In this document: one piece after another, positions 5,222 through 19,136 of the stretch
Position numbering within the stretch: the stretch's first letter is position 1
Layout: every line of letters begins with the position of its first letter
Source of the DNA: a virus
Direction: 5' to 3' (one strand)
DNA: 22,648 nucleotides
IMG/VR virus record: IMGVR_UViG_3300046462_000676
Coordinates: 1-22,648 of that record
Made by a program: the position numbers and the translations under genes
Notes under the pieces: model-generated
Database searches by the model: none
The model's input: only the letters and a program-made list of their open reading frames with translations
What the model was told of the DNA's origin: nothing

Positions 5222-5950
5222 TCAGACCGACGTCGGCTCCGTGCCAAAGTCGGGCTTCACTTCGAACACCCAGGCAAAGCCAGTCTTGCCGACGCCATCG
5301 CTGCCGTCGCTGCATTTCTTGGGCCTTGCCTGCGGATTGACTTCGACCGCCACCCAGTGACCGCCGGGGACAGGCGCTTCGCCCTTGGGCGCGGCGACCG
5401 GAAGGTCATCCGAACCCTGCAGCCAGCCGACAGCCTTGGTTTCGCCCTCGACCACGATGGCGATCCTGCCAGGGCGATGCGGAGGCTCAGTCGGAAGCAC
5501 CGCGCCTTCGGGCAGCGGGATGACCTGCACCACCGGCACACGCGGCACGGGGATCGGATGGCCGGGAGCGGCTGGAAGAATCGGTCCCTGACTGGGATAA
5601 ACCGGCAAGCCAGGCAGACCCTGATCGGGGTGGCCATAACCAGGTAGTCCTTGATCCGGATGACCATAGCCAGGAAGACCTTGATCAGGATGCCCGTAGC
5701 CGGGAAGGCCCTGATCCGGGTGCCCGTATCCAGGCAAACCCTGGTCGGGACGCGGGCGCCTGCCAGGCAGATCTTGATCGGGGTGGCCGTAGCCGGGGAG
5801 GCCTTGATCAGGATGGCCGCCGCTGGGGCGATCATAGCCGGGGTCAACGGGACTCCAGCCGCCGCCAGGACGCCCAAAACCGGGATCAGCGGGGTGAACC
5901 ACGTCACCGATATCGGCCACTCCGCGAATTACAACATGACGCAAGACCAT
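5222..5950 (-). CDS. Pro/Gly-rich protein with GHPDQGLPGY repeats
   Basis: A 242-residue protein starting at ATG 5950, with AGGAG 9 bases upstream. Residues 1-44 contain a motif row HPADPGFGRPGG then PVDPGYDRPSGG. Residues about 45-114 carry seven tandem copies of a decapeptide close to GHPDQGLPGY, one of them altered (RRPRPDQGLPGY). A Pro-rich stretch follows (115-165), then a compact C-terminal part (residues about 165-240) with IAIVVEGETKAVGWLQGS, GGHWVAVEVNPQ and FAWVFEVKPDFG, which looks like a small beta domain. The repeats probably form an extended rod or spacer. I recall similar Pro/Gly repeat proteins in phages of rhizobia, without a known function. It may be a virion protein that projects its C-terminal domain. 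Confidence 0.7.
   Translation of the reverse strand: MVLRHVVIRGVADIGDVVHPADPGFGRPGGGWSPVDPGYDRPSGGHPDQGLPGYGHPDQDLPGRRPRPDQGLPGYGHPDQGLPGYGHPDQGLPGYGHPDQGLPGYGHPDQGLPGLPVYPSQGPILPAAPGHPIPVPRVPVVQVIPLPEGAVLPTEPPHRPGRIAIVVEGETKAVGWLQGSDDLPVAAPKGEAPVPGGHWVAVEVNPQARPKKCSDGSDGVGKTGFAWVFEVKPDFGTEPTSV
5609..5818 (-). repeat. Tandem 30-bp coding repeat (decapeptide GHPDQGLPGY)
   Basis: Seven in-frame units of about 30 bp encode GHPDQGLPGY or near variants. The DNA copies differ at many third codon positions while the peptide is kept, so this is an old array preserved for its protein sequence, not a fresh duplication and not a CRISPR array (no spacers). Confidence 0.85.
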
Positions 5951-7513: not shown

Positions 7514-7557
7514 CAGGGTTTTCCCTTCTCGGATTGCGGCTTACCGGAGCCGTGGGG

Positions 7558-7812
7558 TTATGGCTTGGGCAACTTCAGCGAGCCTGACGACAGCAGGCAA
7601 CTGATGAGGTCGAAGACCACATAGATGACAAAGATGACGATCACCGCCCAGACAATGATCTTGACGATCTGCAGGACGACGCCGACAGCGCCGCCCAAAT
7701 CCCCGACTTGAGCCAGCACCCAAGGCACGAAAAGTTGGAGGATGGCGATGAGAGCGCCGACGATGACGACCCAAATGAGCAAGTTCTCAAGCCAGGCGAG
7801 CGAGAAACACAT
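7558..7812 (-). CDS. Small two-helix membrane protein, possible holin
   Basis: An 84-residue protein. The upstream ATG at 7821 directly abuts the GAAGG site, while the ATG at 7812 (MCFSLAWLENLL) is 9 bases from it and is the better start. Two hydrophobic segments are visible, about residues 8-32 (LLIWVVIVGALIAILQLFVP) and 42-70 (VVLQIVKIIVWAVIVIFVIY), with a short C-terminal tail SCLLSSGSLKLPKP. Small size, two membrane segments and a phage late operon fit a class II-type holin, which times lysis by opening the inner membrane. No endolysin or spanin is next to it in this window, so another membrane role is possible. Confidence 0.6.
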   Translation of the reverse strand: MCFSLAWLENLLIWVVIVGALIAILQLFVPWVLAQVGDLGGAVGVVLQIVKIIVWAVIVIFVIYVVFDLISCLLSSGSLKLPKP

Positions 7813-7847
7813 CGGCGTCATCCTTCAAGCTAAATCACCGTATCAGG

Positions 7848-9482
7848 TTAATTCGACCGTGTCGCGGCCAATGCTTTGGCGACTGCGCCGCCACAGGCGT
7901 ATCCGGGCGGCAAGATCAGCCCCGACTGCCGGGGTGCTTGCGGCGCAAGTGCTCCGGGAGGTCCATTTCCTGTTCCGCCGATAATTCCTTGGGGGGCTGG
8001 CCCGCGTGATCCAGGGCCAGGTACGAGTCCCGGTCCACTGGCACCCCGAACCGGTGCATCAGGCGCTCCAGAGGTGTCGTGCCACTCCGGTGGCCGGATC
8101 CCCCCTGCGAAGTCGTGGATTTCTTTGCGGACATCGTCGATTCCTTTTCTTCCGTGCTTGTAGTCGTTCCAGATGCTGTCGATATGGGCGTTGTTTTTAT
8201 CAGTTTTGAAGGTGTCGGGAAACAATCCCCTGATCGCCTCCCACGTAATCGATTGCATTTCGCGAGGCAGTATACCGCGCTCTTTGGCGGCTTGGCGATA
8301 GGCGTCGGCATAGAGCGGATAGGTTCCGTTCACGCCGGTGGCGTTGGAGCCGCCAGCGCCCGGAACGCCCTTGCCGGCGTAGTTGCTGAAATTGTGCGCC
8401 ACCTCAAGCGAATTGCCCGACAGCGCGCGCAGTAGGCCGGCGGCGACCGCATGGGTGTCGATGGTGACGTCGCCATGCTGCGAGTTGGGGTCGAGAATAT
8501 TGTTGTAGAAATTGCGGACCTTGTGGCGCTCGCCCATCAGACGGTTCATGAAGGTCGGCTCGCCGTTGCTCTCGATCGCCTGCACCGCCTTGCCGATCTC
8601 GCCCAGCGAACCCCAGCCCGCCCGCGATGGCGAGCCGTCGGCGTTGCGGGCGATTTCGCCAAAGTGGCCTTCAGGCGTGGCGATCTTGTAGCCGGGATCG
8701 CCATGGGTCTGATCGTGCATCCGGATCCACAGCGCCTTCATGACCGCGCGCTCGTCGCGAGGGATGTGACCCATTTGATCAATTTCGCCCAGCGACTTGC
8801 CTCTAATCGCCTGGAAGATTGGCTCGTTCTTCTCGGTGGCCAGCTTGTCCAGGCCGCGATAAGTGCCCTCCATCTCAGGCGAGAAGGTTTCGCCGTGGTA
8901 GGCGTTATTGCCGCGCCCCTTCATCGCATGCAACACGCGCTCGGCCAGCGACACGTTCTGAAACCAGTCTTTCTGCGGCGACAGCGCGGCCAGCGCGCCG
9001 GCGGCTGACGCCTCCGAAACGCCGTATTTCTTGGCCCACTCCTTGGCCAGCTTGTTGGCGCCGTCGTACCACAGCTTGGATCGCTGGCGAGTTTCGTCGG
9101 GCACCTGGTCGTGTAGCCACAGCAGGTTGTCCTTGACGTGCTTGATGAAATGCTCGGACAGATCCTGGTTCGACAGCTTGCTCGCGTCTTTCGAAACATT
9201 CGGATAATGCCGCAGGATGTCGACGTTCTTGTCGAACAGCGCCGGCGTCGCGCGCAGCGCCGCCATGTTGACGGTGCGCGGCCCTGGCCCCAGATCGAGC
9301 GGCTTGGCGCCCGTCGCCAGCCGGGTGTCGATGCGGGCCGGGTGATCGCCAGGCATGATGATCTGGGGAATGTCCTTGACGACGCCGCCTTTGGCCATCG
9401 GCGCGCCGCCGCCGACGACATGAGGCAGCTTGTCATAAAGAGCCTTGGCCGTCAGGAGCGCAGCGCGGATGGGCTTGTTCAT
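7848..9482 (-). CDS. DUF7178-like phage protein, possible virion-carried enzyme
   Basis: A 544-residue protein translated through an ATGA overlap with the portal gene. Residues 1-60 include a Gly-rich GGGAPMAKGGVV; the tail (about 470-544) is Pro/Gly-rich and ends near CGGAVAKAL. The core has three recognisable blocks: residues 138-173 (WYDGANKLAKEWAKKYGVS, then AAGALAALSPQKDW), 320-351 (KVRNFYNNILDP, then VTIDTHAVAAGLLRAL) and 388-422 (YPLYADAYRQAAKERGILP, then QSITWEAIRGLFP). These blocks match my memory of a phage and mobile-element family called DUF7178, of unknown function. The order SPQ, RN and IDTHA resembles the layout of helix-hairpin-helix DNA glycosylases, but this is only a pattern. 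The site next to the portal suggests a protein packaged in, or ejected from, the head. Confidence 0.65.
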   Translation of the reverse strand: MNKPIRAALLTAKALYDKLPHVVGGGAPMAKGGVVKDIPQIIMPGDHPARIDTRLATGAKPLDLGPGPRTVNMAALRATPALFDKNVDILRHYPNVSKDASKLSNQDLSEHFIKHVKDNLLWLHDQVPDETRQRSKLWYDGANKLAKEWAKKYGVSEASAAGALAALSPQKDWFQNVSLAERVLHAMKGRGNNAYHGETFSPEMEGTYRGLDKLATEKNEPIFQAIRGKSLGEIDQMGHIPRDERAVMKALWIRMHDQTHGDPGYKIATPEGHFGEIARNADGSPSRAGWGSLGEIGKAVQAIESNGEPTFMNRLMGERHKVRNFYNNILDPNSQHGDVTIDTHAVAAGLLRALSGNSLEVAHNFSNYAGKGVPGAGGSNATGVNGTYPLYADAYRQAAKERGILPREMQSITWEAIRGLFPDTFKTDKNNAHIDSIWNDYKHGRKGIDDVRKEIHDFAGGIRPPEWHDTSGAPDAPVRGASGPGLVPGPGSRGPAPQGIIGGTGNGPPGALAPQAPRQSGLILPPGYACGGAVAKALAATRSN

Positions 9483-12013
9483 TTGCTCTTACCCTTCGGC
9501 TTGGCGGCTGGCTTCGGACGGGGTTTGGCCTTGGCGACCGCGATCGCCGCCGTCTTCTTCACGCCCTCCAGTTCCTTCTCGTGCGCGTGGGTCTTTTCGA
9601 CAATCTCGTGCTCATGCGCCTGCTCGCGGCCCATCAGGGCGTGATCGTGGTGCATTTCCTCCTGGGTGCGCGCGTTCTCGGCGTGGCTGTCCATGACCTG
9701 CTTGGCCATGTCGATCGTTTCCGCCCTCGTCTTGAGGCGCTGCTCGTCGTCGTGGTGGGCGTCCTTCATCGACATTTCGCCCAGTTTCAACTGAACTTCC
9801 TGCTGGCGGGTCTGGGCGTTCAGCAGGTCAGCCTGGGCCTTGGCCCCCATGACGGACTGGTGGGTGTCGGCCTGCTGCGCATGCGCGTTGGCCTTGATGC
9901 GCTCCGATTCGGCGCGGTGCTGATCGACCGGCGTATCCTGCTGGACCTGGCCGGTTTCGTCCATGCCCATGGTCTGGGCTTCCGCCATCAGGTTCATGGC
10001 GCGCGCGCCAGATTCCTTGGCTTTCGCCTGGGCGGTGACCATCGCCGCCTGCGCGGTGAGGGTCTTGGCCGCCGTCTCGGCCTGCTGCTGGACGATTTGC
10101 GGAGGAGGCGCAGCCTGGGCCGCCGGCGGCGCCATGAATTGCTGCGGATTGTTCCAGCCCAGCGCCTGCAGCGCCGCCGTGTCGATCGCGATCGGGTCGT
10201 ACATGGTGGGGTTCTGCTGCTGCAACTGCTTGAGCGCCATGATCTTCATCACGCGCTGGCCATGGCTGGCGGTGTTCGGATCGGCCTGCGGGGTCAGATC
10301 GGCCAGATCGAGCGCGGCGCGGAAATTCTGCTCGTCCCATGGCGCGGACGGCTTCTTGTTGCGCTGCCAGAACGCCTTGGGGTTTTCCTTGAAGCAGCGT
10401 ATCAGCAGGCGAAATTCTTGCGACTGAGCCGAGTGCATGCGCTTGTGGACGTTGTTGAGCACCTTCTGGGCCTGCTCGATCATCGCCAGGATGGTGCCGA
10501 CGGGAATGTCAGCCTTGCCTTCGCCGGTGGGCAGTTCGGCGGTGCCGCCGCTGCGCTGGCCGGTCTGCGCCATGTCTTGCACCAGCGCCATCAAAGCTTG
10601 AGACGGCGGCTGGTAAGGAAGCGGCATAATCGCCTGACTGATGGGAAGACCGCCCGTCTTGACGAGAACGCCGCCGCCCGGCGGGACGCGGAAGATGTTG
10701 GTGTTCTGACGCGCGCCCGTGTCAGCCATGAGAAAGCCGGGAAAGTTATTAAACATTCCAGCATCCAGAAGCTCACGCCAAGCAGCAGTAACAGCGTTGG
10801 TAGTGTTCCCCAATATATGGAGCAGGCCAATGTCGTAGAATCCCAATCCTGGCACGAAAATATATTTGACGAAGGTTTCGCGAGCTTCAGGAAGCTCCTT
10901 CGTGTCTTCATCGTAGTTGCGGACGATTGAAAGGATTTTGCGGCTGGAGAGATCGATGGTGACCCGGTAGGGGATTTCGAGGCCGGTGATCTTGCCCTTG
11001 TATTTGTGCTCATAGCCTTTGAGGTCGAGTTCGCAATAGCACTCGTAGATCTCGCGGTCACGGTCGTCGGGCCTCGTGGTGGTGGCCTGGATCCCTTGCT
11101 GGTTTTTGGCTGCTTCCTGGGCCGCGTCGAGGCTCTGCGGCTTGGGCGTGTCGAGATCGACGTCGCGGTAAGCGCCAATAATCTGCATGCGCTTGACCGT
11201 CGAAGGCCGCATCATGGAACGATGGGTAACACGCTTGGCGTTCGCAAGATCAGTCGCAGCGTCGTTGACGATGAGGTCATTAGCATCGACGGATTCGCTG
11301 ACCGGTCGGTTCCGTAAGGGACAATTGTAGACCTTTTTGAAGGCTGTCCCGCCAAATCCGAGCAGCAGGAACATCTTGTCGGTGTCGGGATAGTATTCGG
11401 TCGCGGTGACTGTGAGGTAGTGATTGAGGTCTTTTTCAAGGGCGGTCGCCAGTGCGTCACGAGGAAGGTTGGAGTTGCTGCCGTCGTCGCGGATCTTGAT
11501 CGGCCCGTCGGTCGGCAGCATTTCGGAGCGGGCGTTGGCCTGGAAGCGGAGCACGGCCTCCTGCAGCAGCGGATGCCGCACTTTTGACATGCCGTCGACC
11601 GGAGCGCCATCGGCGGCGCTTTGAAGATTGGGAATTTCGATCTTGAAGCCCAGCAGCTTGATGCCCTGGGCGCGCTCCTCGATCCAGTCGTTGCGGCTCG
11701 ACAGATCCTCATCAATGCCGCGCAGCAGGTCGTCAGCGATCGCGCTGAGATCGTCTTCCTTGATCTTCTCGGCCAAATTGGCGAACCAGCCGACGTTTTG
11801 TTCCGGTTTGTCGACCAGCGACCGGCCATCGAGGGAGACAGTGACGCTGCCGTCGGGATGCTCGATCTTGATGACGGCGCCGGCGTCGTCCATTTCGGGA
11901 ACGCCGGGCGGATTATGCACATCATGCTTGATGGAAAGGCCCGGCGAGATAGCCGGCGGCGCGCCGCCGTTGGTCTGGCGGATGTTCAGGGGCAAGCCCG
12001 GCACCAAAGGCAT
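9479..12013 (-). CDS. Portal protein (P22/N4-like)
   Basis: An 844-residue protein; ATG 12013 has GAGAGGA 7 bases upstream. A ring of twelve such subunits forms the DNA entry channel of the head and the docking site for terminase and tail. Features: a charged N-terminal part, then YYPDTDKMFLLLGFGGTAFKK, then DANDLIVNDAATDLANAKRVTHRSMM (about 240-270), TRPDDRDREIYECYCELDLKGYEHKYK, a Gly-rich GFYDIGLLHILGNTTNAVTAAWRELLDAG, and a helix-rich region with GTILAMIEQAQKVLNNVHKRM. These match portals of the large P22/N4 type. Residues about 620-815 form a long Gln/Ala/His-rich coiled coil like the P22 portal barrel, ending in a Lys/Pro tail. The length slightly exceeds that of P22 gp1 (725 residues). 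A promoter-like site lies upstream. Confidence 0.88.
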   Translation of the reverse strand: MPLVPGLPLNIRQTNGGAPPAISPGLSIKHDVHNPPGVPEMDDAGAVIKIEHPDGSVTVSLDGRSLVDKPEQNVGWFANLAEKIKEDDLSAIADDLLRGIDEDLSSRNDWIEERAQGIKLLGFKIEIPNLQSAADGAPVDGMSKVRHPLLQEAVLRFQANARSEMLPTDGPIKIRDDGSNSNLPRDALATALEKDLNHYLTVTATEYYPDTDKMFLLLGFGGTAFKKVYNCPLRNRPVSESVDANDLIVNDAATDLANAKRVTHRSMMRPSTVKRMQIIGAYRDVDLDTPKPQSLDAAQEAAKNQQGIQATTTRPDDRDREIYECYCELDLKGYEHKYKGKITGLEIPYRVTIDLSSRKILSIVRNYDEDTKELPEARETFVKYIFVPGLGFYDIGLLHILGNTTNAVTAAWRELLDAGMFNNFPGFLMADTGARQNTNIFRVPPGGGVLVKTGGLPISQAIMPLPYQPPSQALMALVQDMAQTGQRSGGTAELPTGEGKADIPVGTILAMIEQAQKVLNNVHKRMHSAQSQEFRLLIRCFKENPKAFWQRNKKPSAPWDEQNFRAALDLADLTPQADPNTASHGQRVMKIMALKQLQQQNPTMYDPIAIDTAALQALGWNNPQQFMAPPAAQAAPPPQIVQQQAETAAKTLTAQAAMVTAQAKAKESGARAMNLMAEAQTMGMDETGQVQQDTPVDQHRAESERIKANAHAQQADTHQSVMGAKAQADLLNAQTRQQEVQLKLGEMSMKDAHHDDEQRLKTRAETIDMAKQVMDSHAENARTQEEMHHDHALMGREQAHEHEIVEKTHAHEKELEGVKKTAAIAVAKAKPRPKPAAKPKGKSK

Positions 12014-12042
12014 GGCGCGTCCTCTCTGGAAAAGCAGAAGGG

Positions 12043-12071
12043 ACTATAACGCCTATTTCAAATATCGCCAA
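12043..12071 (-). promoter_or_regulatory. Candidate sigma-70-like promoter for the portal gene
   Basis: On the minus strand TTGGCG (12071-12066) and TATAGT (12048-12043) are 17 bases apart, matching 4/6 and 5/6 of the consensus. The -10 box is 30 bases before the portal ATG, allowing a short leader. It overlaps the end of the preceding small gene. Confidence 0.45.
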
Positions 12072-12273
12072 TGTATGGCAGCGGCGTCAGATCATAGGCC
12101 TTCTGGAACCGCTTTAGTCCCTCGCGAGCCGCTTCATCCTCGTCGTCGGCAATGATGGTGTATTCAGCCTTGACCAGCGGTTCGCCGCCCTCGACATGGA
12201 CGTCGAACAGGTGAGACGGTCGCCCGCCGGGCATCAGATGATTATCGACTGTGCATTTCATCATGAAGCTCAT
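12058..12273 (-). CDS. Small protein of unknown function
   Basis: A 71-residue protein starting MSFMMKCTVDNHLMPGG. GGGGA lies 8 bases before the ATG at 12273, inside the end of the membrane-protein gene, with which it overlaps by 32 bases. Residues 20-55 look like a small alpha/beta unit (HLFDVHVEGGE, YTIIADDEDEAAREGLKRF), reminiscent of short phage proteins that adopt a compact beta-beta-alpha fold. It is the last of the accessory chain before the portal. I cannot assign a function; anti-defence or regulatory roles are possible but not shown. Confidence 0.6.
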   Translation of the reverse strand: MSFMMKCTVDNHLMPGGRPSHLFDVHVEGGEPLVKAEYTIIADDEDEAAREGLKRFQKAYDLTPLPYIGDI

Positions 12274-12385
12274 CTTCGTAATCCCCGTGTCGAGCGGCGC
12301 GCTCGTCGCGCCGCCCCTTGTTGTAGGAGAGGCGGGCGACGAGCAGCAGGATGAAGACCGAAATGGCGATATCGAGCGCAGTCAT
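12242..12385 (-). CDS. 47-residue single-pass membrane protein
   Basis: A tiny protein, MTALDIAISVFILLLVARLS, then a strongly charged tail (KGRRDERAARHGDYEDELHD). One hydrophobic helix (residues 4-18) should span the inner membrane with the charged tail in the cytoplasm. The start ATG 12385 overlaps the stop of the gp49-like gene (ATGA). The frame is open upstream, but the overlap and the AAGGGG just before it support this start. The function is unknown; it could help lysis or modify the host membrane. Confidence 0.6.
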   Translation of the reverse strand: MTALDIAISVFILLLVARLSYNKGRRDERAARHGDYEDELHDEMHSR

Positions 12386-12864
12386 AGCCCCTTCAGCACG
12401 TTGCGGAGGACGTAGCCCTCCAATGACCAAATCTTGCGGCGGGCGTCATCATAAGCGATGCGCCGGCCAATGGCGGCGTCGTAATTGGTTGGAGAGGCGC
12501 AGGCTGATTCGCCAACGACATGATATCCGTTCATCAGTTCGATGGCGCAGATCATGACGGTGGTGTCGGGAAAATTGTAGTATTTCACCTGGCGGATGCG
12601 CTGGTCGATGATTTCCGGCGTAATCCGGGGCGCAACCTTGCCGTTTTCACGGATTTGCATGTCAATTTGCTCTTCGGCTGCTCTGCTCATTGGGTCTTCT
12701 TCTCCTTCGGCCTGCCAAAGCCAGGCGTTGTTGCCGGCATAGTGATAGGCGCCGGCCTGGCCATCGTTATTCGAGGCCACCAAAACCTTGAAAGGCCTGT
12801 CGTGGGTCAGGCCCCGGTCGTTCAGCGGACCGCCTCTGCAAATTCCGTTCAAAACTTCGCTCAT
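12382..12864 (-). CDS. Phage_gp49/66-family protein with an extra N-terminal module
   Basis: A 160-residue frame starting at ATG 12864 (ATGA overlap with the upstream stop; AGGA 9 bases before). Residues 59-160 match the Phage gp49/66 family of short phage proteins: a Gln-ile-rich start, QIRQVKYYNFPDTTVMICAIELMNGYHVVGESACAS, then AIGRRIAYDDARRKIWSLEGYVL. Its role is not settled in any phage I know. Residues 1-58 are an additional module, NGICRGGP then a Trp-ended strand WLWQAEGEE, similar to the 63-residue protein at 13136-13327. The internal ATG at 12690 (residue 59) has a purine-rich GGAGAAGAAGA site upstream, so a shorter protein of normal family length may also be made. Confidence 0.75.
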   Translation of the reverse strand: MSEVLNGICRGGPLNDRGLTHDRPFKVLVASNNDGQAGAYHYAGNNAWLWQAEGEEDPMSRAAEEQIDMQIRENGKVAPRITPEIIDQRIRQVKYYNFPDTTVMICAIELMNGYHVVGESACASPTNYDAAIGRRIAYDDARRKIWSLEGYVLRNVLKGL

Positions 12865-13139
12865 GCTTTTAGTCCTGCTCCGGTGATCAATCGGCATGTG
12901 CCGTGGGTAGTGGGGGCGGCGCTGTCGGCAATCCACGACATGCAGCGCGTGGTGATGCAATTGAAAGCCTGGGTGATCTGGGCGTCGGTGTCGCCGTAGC
13001 GCAGCCTGACGCCGCGACTGGTCGTCATGTGATCAGCGCCGGCTATGGGAGAGACGTTGACGAACGGGCACCAGCACGTCTGCGCCATCGTGATCGGCAT
13101 GCCGGTGATGGGGGCGACTTTATCGGGAATGTCGGTCAT
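12861..13139 (-). CDS. Small Cys-motif phage protein
   Basis: A 92-residue protein started at ATG 13139 in an ATGA overlap; a longer upstream frame exists but the overlap decides the start. Cys residues occur at C22 and C24 (CWCP), C61 and C66 (NCITTRCMSWI) and C82 (GTCRL). The order CP, then CxxxxCMxW, then GxC recalls short phage and prophage proteins that I believe carry a Cys-bound metal, although I cannot name a family. The middle part (SRGVRLRYGDTDAQITQAF) is soluble. It belongs to the chain of overlapping accessory genes between TerL and portal. The function is unknown. Confidence 0.6.
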   Translation of the reverse strand: MTDIPDKVAPITGMPITMAQTCWCPFVNVSPIAGADHMTTSRGVRLRYGDTDAQITQAFNCITTRCMSWIADSAAPTTHGTCRLITGAGLKA

Positions 13140-13327
13140 TTCTTGCCCTCGTGGTGCAGTTCGACCCAATTCCAGTGGCCGACGCCGTCGTTGCAGTATT
13201 CATTGCCGTCGGGGGCGCAGACGAAACGCGACCCCGCCGTCAATGGCAGGCCTTTCCACGGGCCGTCGCGGCAGACGCCGGTCCATAGCTTGGTCGTTTT
13301 GATGGGTTCGGGCTTGAACGGGGTCAT
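13136..13327 (-). CDS. 63-residue protein with GVCRDGPWKG motif
   Basis: A small soluble protein joined to its neighbours by ATGA overlaps at both ends. The sequence MTPFKPEPIKTTKLWTGVCRDGPWKGLPL is followed by a strand with a Cys (SRFVCAP), GNEYC, and a Trp-ended strand HWNWVELHHEG. The plan G-(V/I)-C-R-x-G-P ... F-x-V ... Y ... W-x-W is shared with residues 7-54 of the gp49-like protein two genes downstream, so the two are probably paralogous modules. Its first residues (MTPFKPEP) also resemble MPPFKPAP in the 16338-16559 product. The function is unknown. Confidence 0.6.
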   Translation of the reverse strand: MTPFKPEPIKTTKLWTGVCRDGPWKGLPLTAGSRFVCAPDGNEYCNDGVGHWNWVELHHEGKK

Positions 13328-13449
13328 CGCGACTTCAATTCCTTCTTCAGCACCTTCGCCGCCGCCTTCAGTATCCTGATCTTGCGCTTCAATTCTTTCT
13401 TGCTGTCATCCTTGTAGGATGGTTGCCGAACCAATCGCAAATGTGTCAC
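13324..13449 (-). CDS. 41-residue basic helical peptide (GTG start)
   Basis: The frame is open much further upstream, but the GTG at 13449 forms a GTGA overlap with the stop of the Tad2-like gene, and its own stop overlaps the next start (ATGA). This gives a 41-residue peptide, MTHLRLVRQPSYKDDSKKEL then KRKIRILKAAAKVLKKEL, a strongly basic amphipathic helix. It may bind nucleic acid or a partner. It is supported mainly by the overlap architecture, so confidence is moderate. Confidence 0.5.
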   Translation of the reverse strand: MTHLRLVRQPSYKDDSKKELKRKIRILKAAAKVLKKELKSR

Positions 13450-14153
13450 GGCACGACCCTCCAATCCTGGGCCAGCATGTCGGATTGGCTCGCCAGCCAG
13501 CCCATCAGGATTTCGCCGGTCGCCGTCTTCATGATGAAGCAAGGCAGCACCTTGACCGTCCCGCCGGGCTGCGCGCGAGCGTAATCGCGGGCCGGCTTTG
13601 ACCACAGCTTTTCGCTGTAGACTTCGCGCGGGCCTTCCACGCCCGACAGAGCGATCCACATATCCTTGCCGTTCCATCCTTCGCGCTGGACTTTGCAGCC
13701 GGCCCGCATTTGCAGGATGGCCGTGCCAAAATCCGTGCCGTAGGAATTTTCGAATTGCTTGAGGTCGCTGGTGACTGGAGGCCGACGCAGCAATTCCATT
13801 TCCGTTGGCTTGTCGCCGCCGGGCATGCGGTCCTCGCCTTGCATCTGAACGAAGCCTGTCCCGTAGATCATGGCGTCTTTCGCCGCCTTTATGACTTCGT
13901 TATCACGCGGGCCGGTGGGGTTGTCGTCCAGCAGCGCCTCCATATTTCGGCGCTGCTCAGGCGTCTGGAGGGGGTGTCCAAAGTCGCCGGCCAGCGGAAT
14001 GCCCTGCATTTCGGGGTCTTGAGGGTCGAAAAGGTTGTCGTCGCCGGGCTTTCTATGCGATCCGGCGATGCTGGGGCGGTGATGGACCGGCCCGGTGGGG
14101 TGGGCCTCGTCCAAAGCAGCCTGAATTGACGGTTTGATGTGTCCGTTGGTCAT
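13446..14153 (-). CDS. Tad2-like (DUF2829) anti-Thoeris protein with long N-terminal extension
   Basis: A 235-residue protein, ATG 14153 in an ATGA overlap. Residues 139-235 match the Tad2 domain: TDFGTAILQMRAGCKVQREGWNGKDMWIAL, then a loop, then KVLPCFIMKTATGEILMGWLASQSDMLAQDWRVV. The family hallmarks RxGWNGK, FIxMKT and WxxSQxDMLAxDW are all present. Tad2 proteins bind the gcADPR signal made by the bacterial Thoeris defence system and so protect the phage; others of the family bind related cyclic nucleotides. Typical Tad2 is about 90-130 residues. Here residues 1-138 are additional, Pro/Asp-rich with HPTGPVHHRPSIAG and a helix (NEVIKAAKDAMIYG), of unknown purpose. The gene lies in a chain of small accessory genes. 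Confidence 0.82.
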   Translation of the reverse strand: MTNGHIKPSIQAALDEAHPTGPVHHRPSIAGSHRKPGDDNLFDPQDPEMQGIPLAGDFGHPLQTPEQRRNMEALLDDNPTGPRDNEVIKAAKDAMIYGTGFVQMQGEDRMPGGDKPTEMELLRRPPVTSDLKQFENSYGTDFGTAILQMRAGCKVQREGWNGKDMWIALSGVEGPREVYSEKLWSKPARDYARAQPGGTVKVLPCFIMKTATGEILMGWLASQSDMLAQDWRVVP

Positions 14154-14305
14154 TTTTTGCTCTCATGCATGTCGCGGTGGGGGTGTTTTTCGACTTCGTG
14201 GACGGTTTCACGACGTTTTTCGGGCTTTTCAGCCTCTTTTTCGGGTTTTTCGGCTGTTTTTGGAGCCTTCTCCGTCACGGACGTGGGGTTATTGCGGAAA
14301 AACAT
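14150..14305 (-). CDS. 51-residue Lys/Glu-rich peptide
   Basis: ATG 14305 is preceded by GGAGG at 7 bases, the best ribosome site nearby, just after TerL. The product is MFFRNNPTSVTEKAPKTAEK, then PEKEAEKPEKRRETVHEVEK, ending HPHRDMHESKK. It is almost all charged and disordered, with PEK-type repeats (EKPEK). It is joined to the Tad2-like gene by an ATGA overlap, so translation of the two is probably coupled. The function is unknown; it could be a leader that sets translation of the Tad2-like protein. Confidence 0.55.
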   Translation of the reverse strand: MFFRNNPTSVTEKAPKTAEKPEKEAEKPEKRRETVHEVEKHPHRDMHESKK

Positions 14306-14321
14306 GACTTTTCCTCCATAG

Positions 14322-15950
14322 TTAACCAGGGTAGAGCGGTTCAAGGGGCCGATTACGACCATATTCCACCTCTTCGTTCATTTCCGCCAGCCTTTCGTCG
14401 GATCTGACGAGGAGGCCGCAGTCGCGGAGGTGCCGGATGGCCTGGGATGTGGTGTCGGTGAGGTCGTCATGCAGCGCCTTGGGGAAGGAAGCCACTTGCC
14501 TGATCACCATTTCCGCCCATTCCTTGTCTGGCGCGTAAATCATGCCCTCCGCGAACAGCGGCTGGACGCTGTAAAGACGCGCCAGCTTGTCCTGGTTGCC
14601 AGGGTTGATCAAATGAACCGCCCAAGGCTCGTGGCCATAGAGCCGGCGCATTTCCTGAGCGACGCTGATGCCGCTGGCCTTGGCCTCGACCAGCAGCCGG
14701 TCGACCTTCAGCTTCTTGCAATGGAGGGCGACTTTAGCCACCAGATCGGAAAGGGACAGGCGCTCGGTCCAGGCGTACATCAAAATGACGCGCGGGGCGG
14801 CGTTGAGGCTGGAGTTGGGCGCTCCTTCCGGCATTTCCTTGGGATGGCCGTAGCGATCCACCAGGCGGGTGGCGGCGTTGCGGGTGTCGCCTGAAAACAC
14901 CCCCCACACCGTCATGGCGCTGGGGTCGTTCTCCTGCTTCAGGCCGTAGGCGGTGTCGATCGAGGCGACGATAAAGTCGAGCGCGGGAAATTCCGGCTTG
15001 TCCCACAAGATCCAGTCGGCGTCCTTGATGACGCCGCCTCCTCGCGGGACCGGGGCCTGCTGCATCTGGCCGGCGGTGGCGAACGGCCCCATGATCCGCT
15101 CTTCGCGTTCGACCACGTCGAGGGGAAAGCGGGCGGGAAAATAAAGCTGGCCGGGGATGGTGCGGGGGTCGGTGAAGCCGAGCATGGTGGGATGGGCGCG
15201 ATCCGGATCGTAGCGCATCGGGATCATGATGTGATCGTAGCCGAGCTTCTTGTCGAGGATCATCCCGGACAGATCGGCCTCGTGCAGCCGCTGCATGATG
15301 ACGACGATCGCGGACTTGCGCGGCGAATTGAGGCGGGTCGGGACAGACTCCCTGAACCACAGGTTGACGCTCTCGCGGGTGCTGTCGGAGTTGGCGTTCT
15401 TGACGCTGAGAGCGTCGTCGATCAGGACGCGGTCGGCGCGGTGGCCGGTGTCAGCGCCCGCCGCGACCGCCCTGCGCCATCCGGAGCGGGTGTTTTCGAA
15501 CACCGTCTTGGAGTTCTGGTCGCCAGTCAGTTGCACCAGACTGCCCCAGTGCTTCTGGTACCATTGGGTGGTGACCAGGCGGCGCATGCGAATGCTGTCG
15601 CGCTCGACCAATTCGATGTTATGGGACGCGCAGAGATAGCGCATATGGGGCAGCGCCGCCGGCCCCCACTCCCAGGCTGGCCAAAAGACGTTGAGGAGGA
15701 GAGATTTCATCCCTCCTGGAGGGATATTAATAAGGAGACGGTTGTAGGGCTTGCCATCGACGGAAGCGCCGTCGGTGATCGCCTCCAGGTGCTCGCAGAT
15801 ATAAGGAAGGTGCCAGTTGTCGATCATCGGCTGGCCCGGCTCGACCTCCTTCCAGGCCCGCTTGACGAACTCGTGCAGGGACCGCTCGCAAAATTCCTTG
15901 TCGATGCGATCGAGGACGTCCTGGGGGTCGACCTTCTGGAGCGCGGTCAT
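14322..15950 (-). CDS. Terminase large subunit
   Basis: A 542-residue packaging motor that cuts concatemeric DNA and drives it into the head. ATPase part: a Walker A-like loop INIPPGGMKS (residues 75-83), Walker B RVLIDDA (174-180, with D178/D179) and a coupling segment VVIMQRLHEADLSG (216-229). Nuclease part (RNase H fold): SIDTAYG (D332), LLVEAKASG (E422) and HDDLTDTT (D495/D496/D499), the expected acidic set. Length is normal for the family. Start ATG 15950 overlaps the preceding stop (ATGA). The short P-loop PPGGMKS resembles the PPxxxKS found in podovirus and N4-like terminases. It lies downstream of TerS but is separated from it by three tiny genes. Confidence 0.93.
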   Translation of the reverse strand: MTALQKVDPQDVLDRIDKEFCERSLHEFVKRAWKEVEPGQPMIDNWHLPYICEHLEAITDGASVDGKPYNRLLINIPPGGMKSLLLNVFWPAWEWGPAALPHMRYLCASHNIELVERDSIRMRRLVTTQWYQKHWGSLVQLTGDQNSKTVFENTRSGWRRAVAAGADTGHRADRVLIDDALSVKNANSDSTRESVNLWFRESVPTRLNSPRKSAIVVIMQRLHEADLSGMILDKKLGYDHIMIPMRYDPDRAHPTMLGFTDPRTIPGQLYFPARFPLDVVEREERIMGPFATAGQMQQAPVPRGGGVIKDADWILWDKPEFPALDFIVASIDTAYGLKQENDPSAMTVWGVFSGDTRNAATRLVDRYGHPKEMPEGAPNSSLNAAPRVILMYAWTERLSLSDLVAKVALHCKKLKVDRLLVEAKASGISVAQEMRRLYGHEPWAVHLINPGNQDKLARLYSVQPLFAEGMIYAPDKEWAEMVIRQVASFPKALHDDLTDTTSQAIRHLRDCGLLVRSDERLAEMNEEVEYGRNRPLEPLYPG

Positions 15951-16132
15951 CCGAACACCATGCCTTTATCAAGCGCCAGCATATAAGAAATGGCGGCCAA
16001 ATGATTCTCCCAGTCGGGATTGATAAAGCGCCAGGCGTGGACGCAGGCAGTGTAGGATCCGAACCACATCGGCGCCCAGTCGCAGGACGAAGAGAGGGAA
16101 ATTCCCAGCTTAAGAGCAGGGTCGTTCTTCAC
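15947..16132 (-). CDS. 61-residue protein of unknown function (GTG start)
   Basis: A small protein starting at GTG 16132 in a GTGA overlap and ending in the ATGA overlap with TerL. The sequence MKNDPALKLGISLSSSCDWA is followed by PMWFGSYTACVHAWRFI and NPDWENHLAAISYMLALDKG. It has five Trp/Phe-type aromatic residues in the middle and looks like a compact helical protein. It could support terminase or be an accessory factor. It is supported by overlap architecture only. Confidence 0.5.
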   Translation of the reverse strand: MKNDPALKLGISLSSSCDWAPMWFGSYTACVHAWRFINPDWENHLAAISYMLALDKGMVFG

Positions 16133-16341
16133 TGCAACTCCCCGATCTGGCGCTTGATTTCTTCGACCGGGAGCCGCAGCCAGGCGGGATCGCAAATGGC
16201 GTGAATGGCGAAAACGTAGCGGGCCTCAGCAAAGTCGCGGGCCTGTTCCTTGCAGATCGGCCAGAGGTATTGAACGTCGATGGCCCGCTGTTGCGCCGCC
16301 CACCAGTCCTGAAGCAGGGAAATCGGGTTGGGGATTTTCAT
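16129..16341 (-). CDS. 70-residue helical protein of unknown function
   Basis: ATG 16341 overlaps the upstream stop (ATGA), so the 32 residues of open frame before it are not counted. The product MKIPNPISLLQDWWAAQQRA, then IDVQYLWPICKEQARDFAEARYVFAIHAICDPAWLRLP, is helical. The pattern LWPICKxxA ... A-F-x-x-HA-x-xDPAW occurs in short proteins of other phages without a known role. It lies in the TerS-to-TerL interval. Confidence 0.55.
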   Translation of the reverse strand: MKIPNPISLLQDWWAAQQRAIDVQYLWPICKEQARDFAEARYVFAIHAICDPAWLRLPVEEIKRQIGELQ

Positions 16342-16559
16342 AAATGCCCCGCCGGCGCCCAGGTCTTGAGATCCTTGATGGCGAAACAAAAAGCAGGCTC
16401 CGTCGAGGGGTGGGCGGGAATGACCTGCATCTTCCACTCGCCGTCGATAAACTGGACGTTGAGCGGGAAGATCCGGCCTTCATAGGGTTTCGGGCCTTCG
16501 ACGGTAATATCCACCAGGGAGCGGGGAGCGGGCTTGAAGGGGGGCATGGGCAGGGTCAC
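16338..16559 (-). CDS. 73-residue protein starting MTLPMPPFKPAP (GTG start)
   Basis: The frame starts with GTG 16559, overlapping the TerS stop (GTGA); ATG 16547 is an alternative with GAGGAG 11 bases upstream and would give MPPFKPAPRSLV. The rest reads VDITVEGPKPYEGRIFPLNV and EWKMQVIPAHPSTEPAFCFA, a likely small beta protein. The start MPPFKPAP resembles MTPFKPEP of the 13136-13327 protein. Role unknown. Confidence 0.55.
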   Translation of the reverse strand: MTLPMPPFKPAPRSLVDITVEGPKPYEGRIFPLNVQFIDGEWKMQVIPAHPSTEPAFCFAIKDLKTWAPAGHL

Positions 16560-17119
16560 TCCTCATCGTCTTCGGGATTATGGCTGGAATGCCCGATCGC
16601 TTTCTGCAGCGCCTTTTCGGCCTGGAGAAGCTCCTCGTTGGTGAGGCGGGAAATGTCGATCTTGGTCAAGGTGTTGATATTGACGTTGGAAACCGTCTCG
16701 ACCTGGCGGCGATCGCCGTAGAAGCGAGGAGAGCGTTTGACCGCCAGCCACTCCCTGGCGTGAATGCGGTGGGGCAGCTTGGCGACATCGAGGTCAGTGA
16801 TTGCCTCGTCGGCAATGGTCACGATCTCGCGGGCGATGTCATCGGCATATAGCTCTCGCGCCGCCGCGAAGGCCCGCGCGAACTCCGGGTGCTCCTCCAG
16901 CCAATAATACATAATCCGGGCGTTGGGCGCCCAGACCGCCTCCAGCGCGATCTGGCGCAAGGTCTTGCCGTCGGTGACCATATCGCAAATCCGCTCGGCT
17001 ATCTCCGGAGTGTAGACAGCGGCCCACGGCGGCTTGACCTCCGGGGGCGTCGGCGCCGCCTTAACGGACTGCGCTAACTCGTAGCGAGCGATGCGCCGGT
17101 TTTGCTTCTTGGTGGGCAT
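16556..17119 (-). CDS. Terminase small subunit (Sf6-like)
   Basis: A 187-residue protein. The frame is open back to 17308, but ATG 17119 has GGAGG at 8 bases and the natural N-terminus MPTKKQNRRIARYELAQ; the extra part is Pro/Ser-rich and unlike protein. The N-terminal part is basic. Residues about 40-75 read YTPEIAERICDMVTDGKTLR, then QIALEAVWAPNARIMYYW, a helix-turn-helix that would bind the pac/cos site. Then EHPEFARAFAAARELYADDIAREIVTIADEA and HRIHAREWLAVKRSPRFYGDR, a pattern typical of Sf6-like small terminases. It recognises phage DNA and loads TerL. It is the first gene of the leftward block, with a promoter-like site just upstream. Confidence 0.88.
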   Translation of the reverse strand: MPTKKQNRRIARYELAQSVKAAPTPPEVKPPWAAVYTPEIAERICDMVTDGKTLRQIALEAVWAPNARIMYYWLEEHPEFARAFAAARELYADDIAREIVTIADEAITDLDVAKLPHRIHAREWLAVKRSPRFYGDRRQVETVSNVNINTLTKIDISRLTNEELLQAEKALQKAIGHSSHNPEDDEE

Positions 17120-17149
17120 GGCGTGGGCCTCCGGGAGAGGGGTCGGGGG

Positions 17150-17179
17150 AGTATATGAGGGAAATGGGCTTGCCGGCAA
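17150..17179 (-). promoter_or_regulatory. Candidate sigma-70-like promoter of the packaging/head block
   Basis: On the minus strand TTGCCG (17179-17174) and TATACT (17155-17150) are 18 bases apart, 4/6 and 5/6 of the consensus, placed 31 bases before the TerS start codon. The -35 box is part of the palindrome TTGCCGGCAA (17170-17179), so a rightward -35 box is present too, although no good rightward -10 box follows. Confidence 0.5.
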
Positions 17180-17234
17180 GAGCGAAAACGGGTTAGACAA
17201 GCGAGTACGAAATTGGGAGGAGGAGAGTGTGGAG

Positions 17235-17615
17235 ATGGGAAAGAATAGAGCGCCAGAAATGGTTTCGGACGACTGTGGGGGGTACGACCCCTTCACCCAG
17301 ATCTGCAAGCCTTACGACTACAGCCGCCATGGCTTCAAGCTATCGAAGTGGGAAACCCGCATCCTGCCAAGGATAAATATGTGCGTGTGGGTCGCGGATA
17401 GACAATTCGAGATCTACACCCTCTATGCCGAGGGCGTCCAGGAAAGCAAGATCGACCTGCTGGAGGCGATTACGGCGCATATCGACACCTGGGAGGGGGA
17501 CTCGGCGGGGGAAATGAACGATACGTTGGAAGCCTTGGAGAATCTCGTCACTGGGCTGAATGACCTCATGATCAAGGTTAGGGGGAAGATTGAGAAAAGT
17601 TCAAAACAAGCCTAG
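17235..17615 (+). CDS. Soluble protein of unknown function, divergent from the terminase operon
   Basis: A 126-residue protein read rightward. The frame is open further left, but the purine tract AGGAGG (17218-17223) lies ahead of both the GTG at 17229 and the ATG at 17235; I use the ATG (MGKNRAPEMVSDDCGGYDPF). The rest, QICKPYDYSRHGFKLSKWETRILPRINMCVWVADRQFEIYTLYAEG, then a helical part ending in LMIKVRGKIEKSSKQA, looks like a real acidic-helical protein. I do not recognise it. It is the only plus-strand gene left of 18351 and is followed at once by a strong RNA hairpin. It could be a regulator. Confidence 0.68.
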   Translation: MGKNRAPEMVSDDCGGYDPFTQICKPYDYSRHGFKLSKWETRILPRINMCVWVADRQFEIYTLYAEGVQESKIDLLEAITAHIDTWEGDSAGEMNDTLEALENLVTGLNDLMIKVRGKIEKSSKQA

Positions 17616-17619
17616 TGAA

Positions 17620-17655
17620 ACGTGGGAAATGAATGAGAGCATTCGTTTCCCATGT
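17620..17655 (+). terminator. 16-bp stem-loop after the 17235-17615 gene
   Basis: Arms 17620-17635 and 17640-17655 form sixteen pairs closed by the tetraloop AGAG. Two of the pairs are G-U (17622/17653 and 17630/17645). G-U pairs form only in the plus-strand RNA; in the opposite RNA they would be A-C mismatches, so this is a structure of the rightward transcript. It starts 4 bases after the stop and is followed by CCGTTTATT. It is a terminator or RNA 3'-end element with a weak U-tract. Confidence 0.6.
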
Positions 17656-17752
17656 CCGTTTATTGGTCAACAACCGAATACGTTTGAAAACCAGGGAAAA
17701 TTTTATAGAAAAATTTTTGGGGCTTATAGTATACTCTGAGCCGCCTATTAGC

Positions 17753-17774
17753 GGGGGTACCCCCCTCATTTTTT
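17753..17774 (+). terminator. Possible second terminator (GGGGGTACCCCC with T run)
   Basis: A palindromic GGGGGTACCCCC (17753-17764) is followed by CTCATTTTTT. The usable stem is short (GGGG, 4-base loop, CCCC), but the T6 run makes a terminator for rightward transcription plausible. The surrounding 260 bases between the convergent genes are A+T-rich with no convincing gene. Confidence 0.4.
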
Positions 17775-17832
17775 CGATCGAGGCCTGTGATCCCCCTGTC
17801 AGCACCCTGCCAGAACAGACCGGGAACGGCCA

Positions 17833-17859
17833 TGTCAGGGGGCTGTCAGCCCCCTGACA
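17833..17859. terminator. 11-bp G+C-rich hairpin beyond the 17876-18181 gene
   Basis: TGTCAGGGGGC and GCCCCCTGACA flank the loop TGTCA. It begins 16 bases after the leftward gene's stop. No U-tract follows on the minus strand. A further CCCCCTGTCAG lies at about 17793. It may be a terminator-like barrier between convergent genes or a protein-binding site. Confidence 0.4.
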
Positions 17860-17875
17860 GGCCTGGGCCTGGGCG

Positions 17876-18181
17876 TTAGCCCTCGCCGGCCAGGGCGGCG
17901 GCGTAAGCGGCGGCGCCCTCGGCGGCGACGCTTGGCTCGGTCCACCCCAGGGCGCGCGCCTCATGCTCGGCATAGGTGCGCGCCGATCGCGCCGCCTGCT
18001 CTGCCCGGCTGATCCAGCCAGGCTCACCCGTGCGCAGCACCCTCACCTCTTGGAACTCGTTCCGCTCGCGACGCAGGCGGGCGATGTCGTCGCGCACATA
18101 CTTGGGCAGGATGCGCCCCTCGTGTATGACGCGCCAGGCGTCGGATCCCTTGTGGAAGGGCAGGCCTTGAACTTGCAGCAT
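17876..18181 (-). CDS. Small helical protein of unknown function, divergent from the plus-strand operon
   Basis: A 101-residue protein; ATG 18181 has AAGG 8 bases upstream. MLQVQGLPFHKGSDAWRVIH begins it; then a basic helix (YVRDDIARLRRERNEFQEVR) and an Ala-rich helical tail (AEQAARSARTYAEHEARALG). It has no domain I can name. Its promoter would share the control region 18182-18350 with the plus-strand operon, and a near-palindromic site covers the -35 box, so it is probably controlled together with that operon, for example as one arm of a divergent switch. Confidence 0.6.
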   Translation of the reverse strand: MLQVQGLPFHKGSDAWRVIHEGRILPKYVRDDIARLRRERNEFQEVRVLRTGEPGWISRAEQAARSARTYAEHEARALGWTEPSVAAEGAAAYAAALAGEG

Positions 18182-18216
18182 GTCGTGTGCCTTTCGTGTG
18201 CGGTTGTTAACTGGCC

Positions 18217-18247
18217 CTTATATGCCTGGCGTCAACCTAGTTGTCAA
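18217..18247 (-). promoter_or_regulatory. Candidate leftward promoter
   Basis: On the minus strand TTGACA (18247-18242, 6/6) is followed by TATAAG (18222-18217, 5/6) with a long 19-base spacer; CATATA at 17 bases is an alternative -10. The -35 box lies largely within operator site O1. It would drive the gene at 17876-18181. Confidence 0.5.
18231..18245. promoter_or_regulatory. Operator-like site O1
   Basis: GTCAAC-CTA-GTTGTC, a 6-3-6 near palindrome with one mismatch between halves. It overlaps the leftward -35 box. Its centre is 42 bp from that of O2, four helical turns. Confidence 0.55.
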
Positions 18248-18272
18248 GCGCGAAAATAATTTATTTTAATTT

Positions 18273-18287
18273 GTAAACCTAGTTGAC
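18273..18287. promoter_or_regulatory. Operator-like site O2
   Basis: GTAAAC-CTA-GTTGAC, extending to TTGTAAAC-CTA-GTTGACAA (18271-18289) with 7 of 8 half-site bases symmetric. The right half contains the -35 hexamer TTGACA of the rightward promoter, so binding there would block polymerase. An A+T-rich stretch (18248-18272) lies between O1 and O2. Confidence 0.6.
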
Positions 18288-18311
18288 AACCGAACACGCT
18301 CTGGCTATATT
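18283..18311 (+). promoter_or_regulatory. Strong rightward sigma-70-like promoter
   Basis: TTGACA (18283-18288, 6/6) and TATATT (18306-18311, 5/6) are 17 bases apart, an ideal arrangement. The start codon of the first gene of the operon lies 39 bases after the -10 box. Confidence 0.78.
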
Positions 18312-18350
18312 CGGGACAGTTCAACGCCGCAGACAAAAAGGCCTCTCCAA

Positions 18351-19136
18351 ATGATCCGCACAGCCTCCGACATGCTCGCCGCTCTCAAGTCTAACCGCTT
18401 CTGCGGCGTCGTGCTCTATCGCGGCCCGTCGATGATTGATGGCGCGCCGATCGTCGCCATCGCCAACAAAATCACCTCAGCGTCGACCAATGCCAAAACC
18501 GGCGCGATGGTTCAATCGTTCATCATCCGCTCGGACGTGTCGCCGGTCGTCGCCCTCAAGCAAGGCTTGGACAGCAGCGTGTGCGGCGATTGCCTGATGC
18601 GCCCCTATCTCGGCGGCGCTTGCTACGTCAACGTCGGTCGGTCTGTCCGTAGCGTTTACGAAACCCTGGTGCGCGGCGATCGCTACGCCGAGCCGGGCGT
18701 TGATTACGACGTCGCCATCCTGCCCGAATTGTTCGCCGGCCTGGGCTTCCGCCTCGGCACCTATGGCGACCCGGCTGCGGTCCCTTTCCAGGTTTGGCGC
18801 GCCGCCACGCTTCGCGCCGCCTTCACTAACGGCTATTCGCACCAATGGCGCGACGCTCGTTTCCAGGCTCTCAAGACCATTTGCATGGCGTCGTGCGACA
18901 GCCCGGCGGACCTGGCGGACGCGATCGCCGCCGGCTGGCGCTCGTTCCGCGTCCGCACCCCGTCGGAGGCGAAAGCCAAGGGTGAAGTGATTTGCCCCGC
19001 GTCGAAAGAGGCCGGCGTGAAGACGTCGTGCGACGCCTGCCAGGCCTGCGGCGGCACGAGCGCAAAGGCGAAAGCGTCGATGGTCATCATCGCCCACGGC
19101 GCAACCGCAAAGCGTTTTGTCGGCGCCCAGGCGTAA
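18351..19136 (+). CDS. Conserved Cys-rich phage/plasmid protein, function unknown (DUF7227-like)
   Basis: A 261-residue protein; ATG 18351 has AAGG 9 bases upstream. Recognisable blocks: RGPSMIDGAPIVAIA (24-38), KTGAMVQSFIIRSD (49-62), CGDC (78-81) with C91 in GGACYVNVG, RLGTYGDPAAVPFQVWR (134-150), GYSHQWRD (161-168), CMASCDS (178-184), AAGWRSFRV (193-201) and GEVICPASKEAG, then CDACQACGG (211-235). I recall this block order from a widespread phage and plasmid family (DUF7227 by memory) without a known reaction. Ten Cys in two clusters (C78, C81, C91; C215, C227, C230, C233) suggest metal or iron-sulphur binding; this is inference. It is the first gene of the operon and has a strong promoter. 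Confidence 0.72.
   Translation: MIRTASDMLAALKSNRFCGVVLYRGPSMIDGAPIVAIANKITSASTNAKTGAMVQSFIIRSDVSPVVALKQGLDSSVCGDCLMRPYLGGACYVNVGRSVRSVYETLVRGDRYAEPGVDYDVAILPELFAGLGFRLGTYGDPAAVPFQVWRAATLRAAFTNGYSHQWRDARFQALKTICMASCDSPADLADAIAAGWRSFRVRTPSEAKAKGEVICPASKEAGVKTSCDACQACGGTSAKAKASMVIIAHGATAKRFVGAQA

Follow-up and report, generated by a model that had tools for sequence, protein, structure and literature searches.

A Tad2-domain protein with an N-terminal tail and a neighboring Acb4-family gene between the terminase and portal genes of a phage lineage

INTRODUCTION

The Tad2 and Acb4 families are both already known, and the sponge proteins of such families have mostly been described singly. In Tad2, the ligand pocket is assigned to the loops beta1-beta2, beta3-beta4, and beta4-alpha3, strand beta4, and helix alpha3 in the accessible part of a review (PMC12043709). 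Acb4 corresponds to Pfam family PF13876; as far as the available text of PMC11722364 goes, 8 of 8 homologs tested bound 3'3'-cGAMP. For the defense systems themselves, the accessible portion of PMC11312562 describes the major head protein as the activator of staphylococcal Thoeris and a prohead protease as that of a CBASS cyclase, with capsid mutations escaping CBASS.

This work describes a locus in which members of the two families lie together. The locus was found in a 22,648-base virus record, the whole of which was analyzed and is referred to here as the window. We consider it probable that the interval between the terminase large subunit (TerL) and portal genes forms a cassette, probably expressed late, that combines a flexibly tailed Tad2 sponge directed against Thoeris with an Acb4 sponge directed against CBASS, the tail acting as a tether or spacer.

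RESULTS

Gene order between the terminase and portal genes

A sequence-only reading of this DNA had proposed a Tad2-like anti-Thoeris gene at 13446-14153 without giving its strand. The gene is real and lies on the minus strand, where a 235-aa open reading frame (ORF) runs from an ATG at 14153 to a stop codon at 13446-13448. The features of the interval are as follows.

14322-15950, minus strand: terminase large subunit (phrog_38, 5.7e-77)
14150-14305, minus strand: 51-aa charged ORF between TerL and Tad2; it begins just past TerL, and its stop overlaps the Tad2 ATG
13446-14153, minus strand: N-terminally tailed Tad2 protein of 235 aa; coordinates include the stop codon
13740-14153, minus strand: N-terminal tail, residues 1-138 (helices modeled with low confidence)
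13824-13835, minus strand: candidate internal start, with GAGG 5 nt ahead of an ATG at residue 110; hypothetical, would give 126 aa
13452-13733, minus strand: Tad2 domain PF11195, residues 141-234 (Pfam, predicted fold)
13324-13449, minus strand: 41-aa basic ORF whose start, a GTG read manually, overlaps the Tad2 stop
12382-12864, minus strand: Acb4-family protein of 160 aa (start taken at 12864)
12400-12624, minus strand: PF13876 (Acb4) domain (Pfam)
9479-12013, minus strand: portal protein, the downstream border of the cassette

The minus-strand order is thus TerS, TerL, the 51-aa ORF, Tad2, small ORFs, the Acb4-family gene, more small ORFs, the portal gene, and, later, the major head protein gene. 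A promoter scan of 9000-18400 returned 5 sites versus 2.5 expected, none of them on the minus strand between TerL and Tad2; given this and the gene overlaps, the Tad2 gene is likely cotranscribed with the packaging genes. Four other contigs (L001 to L004) encode the identical 235-aa protein. In MW202675.1, the isolate with the most similar portal, different small genes occupy the TerL-portal interval, and no Tad2 motif was recognized among them by eye.

Elsewhere in the window, a GroES-like co-chaperonin (phrog_3188, E value of 6.9e-7) is encoded among the head genes (4460-4846, minus strand), and a near-consensus sigma-70 promoter-like site (18283-18311, plus strand, 11/12 positions) stands ahead of a plus-strand ORF starting at 18351. 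A single 138-kb IMG/VR record includes both L001 (21-34 kb) and L010 (90-103 kb), and a separate TerL-Tad2-Acb4-portal segment is present in each; the record holds either two phages or a double arrangement.

The C-terminal Tad2 domain

Pfam, solved relatives, and the predicted fold all identify residues 141-234 as a Tad2 domain. The PF11195 (Tad2-like) profile matches them with an E value of 1.7e-20 and 73.7 bits (cutoff, 25), in agreement with the earlier assignment of residues 139-235, and the motifs cited for that assignment (QREGWNGK, FIMKT, and ASQSDMLAQDW) are all present. When the Protein Data Bank (PDB) was searched by sequence with E values up to 1, all 7 distinct matched sequences were Tad2/AcrIIA7, ranging from 6.7e-13 for SptTad2, the best, to 5.8e-7. 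A structure model of the 235-aa protein as a monomer averages 64.5 pLDDT over the whole chain and has 10-residue block means of 74 to 93 within residues 141-235. A Tad2 fold is evident in this model: Foldseek ranks 1 to 24 are all Tad2/AcrIIA7 entries (E values of 3.3e-8 to 8.3e-6), and rank 25 follows at 1.7. Searches of PADLOC and NCBIfam gave no match for the window's Tad2 and Acb4 proteins. The Tad2 domains of the window and contig L005 are 87% identical while their TerL proteins share just 63%, which suggests that the domain has been exchanged between phages or is strongly constrained.

The size of the protein had been considered exceptional, on the premise that other Tad2 proteins have 90 to 130 residues. 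Comparison does not bear out that premise in the form given. Among the matches listed, 126 of 218 Tad2 ORFs (a redundant set) place at least 50 residues ahead of the domain, counted from the first Met, and in the PHROGs Tad2 families phrog_872, phrog_1048, and phrog_30130, the domain is preceded by 76 to 170 residues. Because extended members are common, size does not define the family, and the 235-aa window protein is unusual only in the type of its extension. The widespread alternative is an SWSPK-type domain of ∼75 residues, which by a rough motif rule precedes Tad2 in ∼44 of the 156 distinct loci among the matches listed. Proteins of this type (e.g., in L024) are N-terminally extended, as is the window protein, but by a different domain; in L024 (5806-6030), it has no Pfam match.

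The N-terminal tail

The first 138 residues had been characterized as rich in Pro and Asp and as lacking a recognized fold, and both descriptions hold: the tail contains 11.6% Pro, 9.4% Asp, and 9.4% Gly and has no family match in Pfam, PHROGs, PADLOC, or NCBIfam. It is protein-coding, and selection on it is weaker than on the Tad2 domain. Its G+C content by codon position (0.67/0.42/0.73) is close to those of TerL (0.64/0.42/0.83) and portal (0.64/0.41/0.79), and in pairs that include the window, dN/dS is 0.32 to 0.52 for the tail versus 0.13 to 0.36 for the domain, values that are rough because many dS values exceed 1. Outside the window pairs, the tail gives 0.66 (L049 versus L010) and 0.72 (L017 versus L039, including a swapped block). 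A wrongly called start as the origin of the tail was ruled out, since tail homologs are coding in several lineages. The structure model places helices at residues 8-16, 65-76, and 83-97 and a short one at 118-122, with block means of 35 to 67 pLDDT; most of the tail is predicted to be disordered.

A search with the tail alone confirmed 5 of 7 stretches, and a tail-profile search of viral contigs confirmed 17 of 77, all from the window's lineage; a further tailed member, L049, surfaced in the Tad2 scan. Six forms of the tail are found in this one lineage: those of the window (identical in L001 to L004), L005, L010 (with L015), L017, L039 (on the same contig as L050), and L049. Five forms carry the tail on a full Tad2 domain, L010 being the exception, and in every form the tailed gene comes next after TerL or is separated from it by one small ORF (the contig of L015 stops short of TerL). 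In these searches, the tail was found only fused to Tad2, beside TerL, in one phage lineage. Of 249 matching records in a phage collection, none spans 80% of the 235-aa protein; the widest matches, from Vibrio phages (query residues 98-233, 32% identity), reach slightly into the tail, so residues 98-138 may bear a faint resemblance to Vibrio phage sequences. The idea that the tail is a shared virion-targeting signal found no support, as the tail profile matched only Tad2 genes (4 ORFs) in the whole records of the window and three relatives.

Contig L010, whose TerL is 94% identical to that of the window, holds two adjacent genes: the first encodes 195 aa, in which the tail precedes a shortened Tad2 domain (PF11195, E value of 3.4e-13), and the second encodes a 112-aa, tail-less Tad2 that is 90% identical to the window domain. 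As fusion is seen in the window and in four more forms, the simplest history that we infer for the L010 lineage is a duplication after which one copy lost its tail.

These data bear on whether the tail contributes anything to the sponge. It could be a mere spacer or an evolutionary ornament, the sponge working equally well without it, and we give this alternative a substantial chance, though below an even one. A low-confidence, mostly disordered model is what it would lead one to expect, and the dN/dS ranges of tail and domain in the same window pairs, large indels, a swapped block between L017 and L039 (forms that are otherwise nearly identical, the L039 block resembling the window's), and a tail-less Tad2 that suffices in the neighboring L010 gene point the same way. 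Set against these are 13 tail residues, Met1 included, that are invariant across four forms, together with helix-forming motifs that recur across divergent lineages. On balance, we favor a flexible, motif-bearing tail that serves the sponge as a tether or spacer; it may also localize or oligomerize the sponge or act on a second target, the roles raised in the sequence-only reading.

Contig L017, from a phage of this lineage, encodes a second Tad2 protein (7226-7951), whose Pro-rich tail is built from HPDQGLPG-like repeats. These are resembled by the HPDQGLPGYG-like repeats of a 242-aa window protein without a PHROG match (5225-5950, minus strand), in which seven copies of a 30-base unit form a tandem repeat at 5608-5819.

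The Acb4-family neighbor

A neighbor that the sequence-only reading had missed matters more than the tail: an Acb4-family gene lies 0.6 kb downstream of the Tad2 gene, ahead of the portal gene. PF13876 is matched with an E value of 3.8e-25 by the ORF that ends at 12382. Its start was set at the ATG at 12864, for 160 aa; the ORF list begins it at 12960, for 192 aa. Searched as a single sequence, the protein matched nothing in the PDB. A profile built from 21 homologs matches 9e4w, the SPO1 Acb4 structure, at 9.4e-10, and profile matches of the Acb4 alignment to mCpol are weak and not significant (E values of 0.49 and 0.61). In the structure model, the domain blocks reach 82 to 96 pLDDT, and Foldseek ranks 1 to 13 are all 9e4w (best E value of 1.6e-4, target TM score of 0.67). 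The available text of PMC11722364 lists K36, F48, E49, V56, Y57, F62, N63, I66, T70, and K81 as the cGAMP contacts of SPO1 Acb4. Mapped by eye, 1 of these 10 is identical in the window (I66), F48 and F62 are conservatively replaced by Tyr, and the other seven (K36, E49, V56, Y57, N63, T70, and K81) are changed to T, H, C, A, D, I, and S, respectively. By family and fold, the neighbor is probably an Acb4-family anti-CBASS sponge whose ligand, judged from these residues, is uncertain.

A GVCxGGPxxGKGL-like motif, noticed by eye, is present in a 63-aa ORF of the window (13136-13327) and at Acb4 N termini (in the window, 12382-12864); it occurs twice in L005 (7194-7967).

Linkage and fusion of Tad2 and Acb4

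Linkage was scored up to ∼6 kb on each side of Tad2 in loci taken from the best 80 of 566 confirmed viral stretches and the best 80 of 283 genome stretches, along with homologs of the protein and of its tail. As the loci were drawn from best matches and window homologs, the sample leans toward the window's relatives; the window itself (L028) and the named reference stretches (L034 to L036) are left out of the count. Acb4 was counted with a domain-only profile lacking the N-terminal GGPL region, which kept 63 of 65 ORFs and removed L017 and its duplicate L033; PF13876 was not found in the whole record of L017. Among the matches listed (199 loci, 156 of them distinct), an Acb4 domain lies near Tad2 in 30 of the 156, always on the same strand, and the other 126 have none in the stretch examined. 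Linkage is seen in 5 of 7 loci inside the window's lineage and in 25 of 149 outside it. The distance is within 1.21 kb in 29 of the 30 linked cases and 2.6 kb in one; Tad2 comes first in 19 and Acb4 in 11, four of which are fusions. In these four, a single ORF holds both Pfam domains over the cutoff:

L093, 5587-6288: Acb4-Tad2 fusion (L094 scores the same)
L129, 5161-6285: Acb4-Tad2 fusion, Pararobbsia silviterrae
L181, 5659-6255: Acb4-Tad2 fusion, Moraxella metagenome-assembled genome (MAG)
L198, 5620-6249: Acb4-Tad2 fusion, Oceanospirillaceae MAG

The L129 fusion has a further N-terminal region, which resembles one that precedes Tad2 in L057.

Whole records were also searched. PF13876 is present in 7 of 16 records (8 copies) and in 9 of 34 (9 copies), and for each of the 17 copies in these 50 records, a Tad2 domain is no more than 1.25 kb away. 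The 34 records were hand-picked, are mostly long contigs, and include nine for which an Acb4 next to Tad2 had been seen beforehand; no unlinked PF13876 copy occurs among them. For isolated phages, 58 of 675 records that match the L093 fusion (some phages being listed under two accessions) cover at least 80% of its length at a single place, meaning that both parts lie close together; Escherichia phages Huey, IME10, and IME11 are examples. In SPO1, the Tad2 and Acb4 genes are ∼108 kb apart.

That the two domains are side by side or fused in many phages suggests that Tad2 and Acb4 work as a pair. Their proximity could instead come from small accessory genes that share a type of variable interval and have no functional pairing, as the 126 of 156 loci without a nearby Acb4 (among the matches listed) and the unlinked genes of SPO1 would allow. 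Such sharing accounts less readily for linked genes that keep, in 29 of 30 listed cases, within 1.21 kb on one strand in both orders, for four fusions with both Pfam domains over the cutoff, or for 17 of 17 PF13876 copies within 1.25 kb of a Tad2 domain, and we judge it possible but rather unlikely. We read the TerL-portal interval as a two-sponge counterdefense cassette.

No description of the tail, the linked pair, or the fusions was found in the literature consulted, which was mostly open access, and an earlier mention is possible. The words "fused" and "adjacent" are absent from PMC11722364, in which "fusion" occurs twice.

A possible internal start

In the window (residue 110), L017, and L039, an in-frame ATG lies 5 nt past a GAGG, and a product begun there would have 126 or 135 aa, which is in the usual range for Tad2. 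One gene could then yield two sponges, the full 235 aa and a 126-aa form. Codon conservation is compatible with such use: for residues that are identical between window and L017, 9 of 10 codons are unchanged in the block around this ATG versus 43 of 97 elsewhere (P = 0.006), and for L039 the counts are 8 of 9 versus 50 of 102 (P = 0.02), in a block that was chosen after looking and with two contigs that are not independent. Local DNA exchange would also be expected to conserve codons in this way. L010 does have tailed and tail-less forms, encoded by separate genes. However, the GAGG-ATG feature is absent from L005 and L049, and the tails of L017 and L039 contain comparable GAGG-start combinations elsewhere, at residues 72 and 88, respectively. 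We regard two products from this gene as unlikely.

Candidate ligands of the Tad2 domain

Residues A145, G152, R157, W160, G162, W219, S222, D225, A228, D230, and W231 are invariant in a 12-sequence alignment that includes SPO1 Tad2. Loss of the ligand-pocket residues would have spoken against the Tad2 reading; alignment with characterized Tad2 proteins shows that the conserved ligand-loop motifs are retained, namely, GWNGK, W219, and S-x-x-D...A-x-DW. The first is the same in the window as in SPO1, ModTad2, SptTad2, and HgmTad2; the window's SQSD corresponds to SQTD in SPO1, SptTad2, and HgmTad2 and to SVSD in ModTad2. From sequence, we take these motifs to lie in the ligand-pocket loops, whose positions come from the accessible part of PMC12043709. 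The insertion after strand 2 is long in the window, as it is in SptTad2 and HgmTad2, and the same review text has Tad2 hold cyclic dinucleotides through an insertion of this kind.

The domain might have another role, as an anti-CRISPR protein (AcrIIA7 has the same fold) or as a purely cyclic-dinucleotide sponge. AcrIIA7-named PDB entries are among the best matches, and the long insertion would fit the second option; with the loop motifs of the ADP-ribose pocket retained, we find either role improbable. The window Tad2 most likely binds a Thoeris signal of the ADP-ribose type (gcADPR or His-ADPR), possibly along with a cyclic dinucleotide.

DISCUSSION

In the mechanism that we propose, binding of its signal by Tad2 would blunt Thoeris, and the Acb4-family protein would most likely bind CBASS cyclic dinucleotides. 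Both sponges would probably be made from the late transcript, at a time when capsid-related proteins would trigger both defenses, and the tail, flexible and motif-bearing, would most likely tether or space the sponge. The placement of the gene among late packaging genes had been thought odd for an antidefense factor; it loses that oddity where capsid-related proteins trigger Thoeris and CBASS, as the available portion of PMC11312562 reports, and late expression would fit such triggers. Counting against a purely late timing, the cGAMP-binding activity of SPO1 appears early, at ∼15 min, and then persists, according to the accessible text of PMC11722364.

A bolder version, in which the tail holds Tad2 at the site of capsid assembly or packaging, where capsid-sensing TIR and CD-NTase enzymes would make their signals, the internal start supplies a free short form, and Tad2 and Acb4 constitute a standing unit, strikes us as very improbable in its entirety.

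If Tad2 and Acb4 do act as a pair, one cassette would counter both Thoeris and CBASS, and gene order could reveal further sponge families among the small genes nearby. The late placement and the tail also raise the question of whether phages place their sponges at the site at which the capsid trigger arises.

Compared with the known Tad2 proteins SPO1 gp34.65, ModTad2, SptTad2, and HgmTad2/AcrIIA7, the window protein shares the fold, GWNGK, and the C-terminal S-x-x-D...A-x-DW, and it adds a 138-residue tail, a location between TerL and portal, and an Acb4 homolog close downstream. Its neighbor has a family match and a predicted fold in common with SPO1 gp1.3 (PDB entry 9e4w) but differs in an extra, low-confidence N-terminal region and in 7 of 10 contact residues. 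The Acb4-Tad2 fusions draw on the same two sponge families; there, one polypeptide carries both domains, with Acb4 in the N-terminal part, where the window protein has its tail, whereas the window divides them between two genes.
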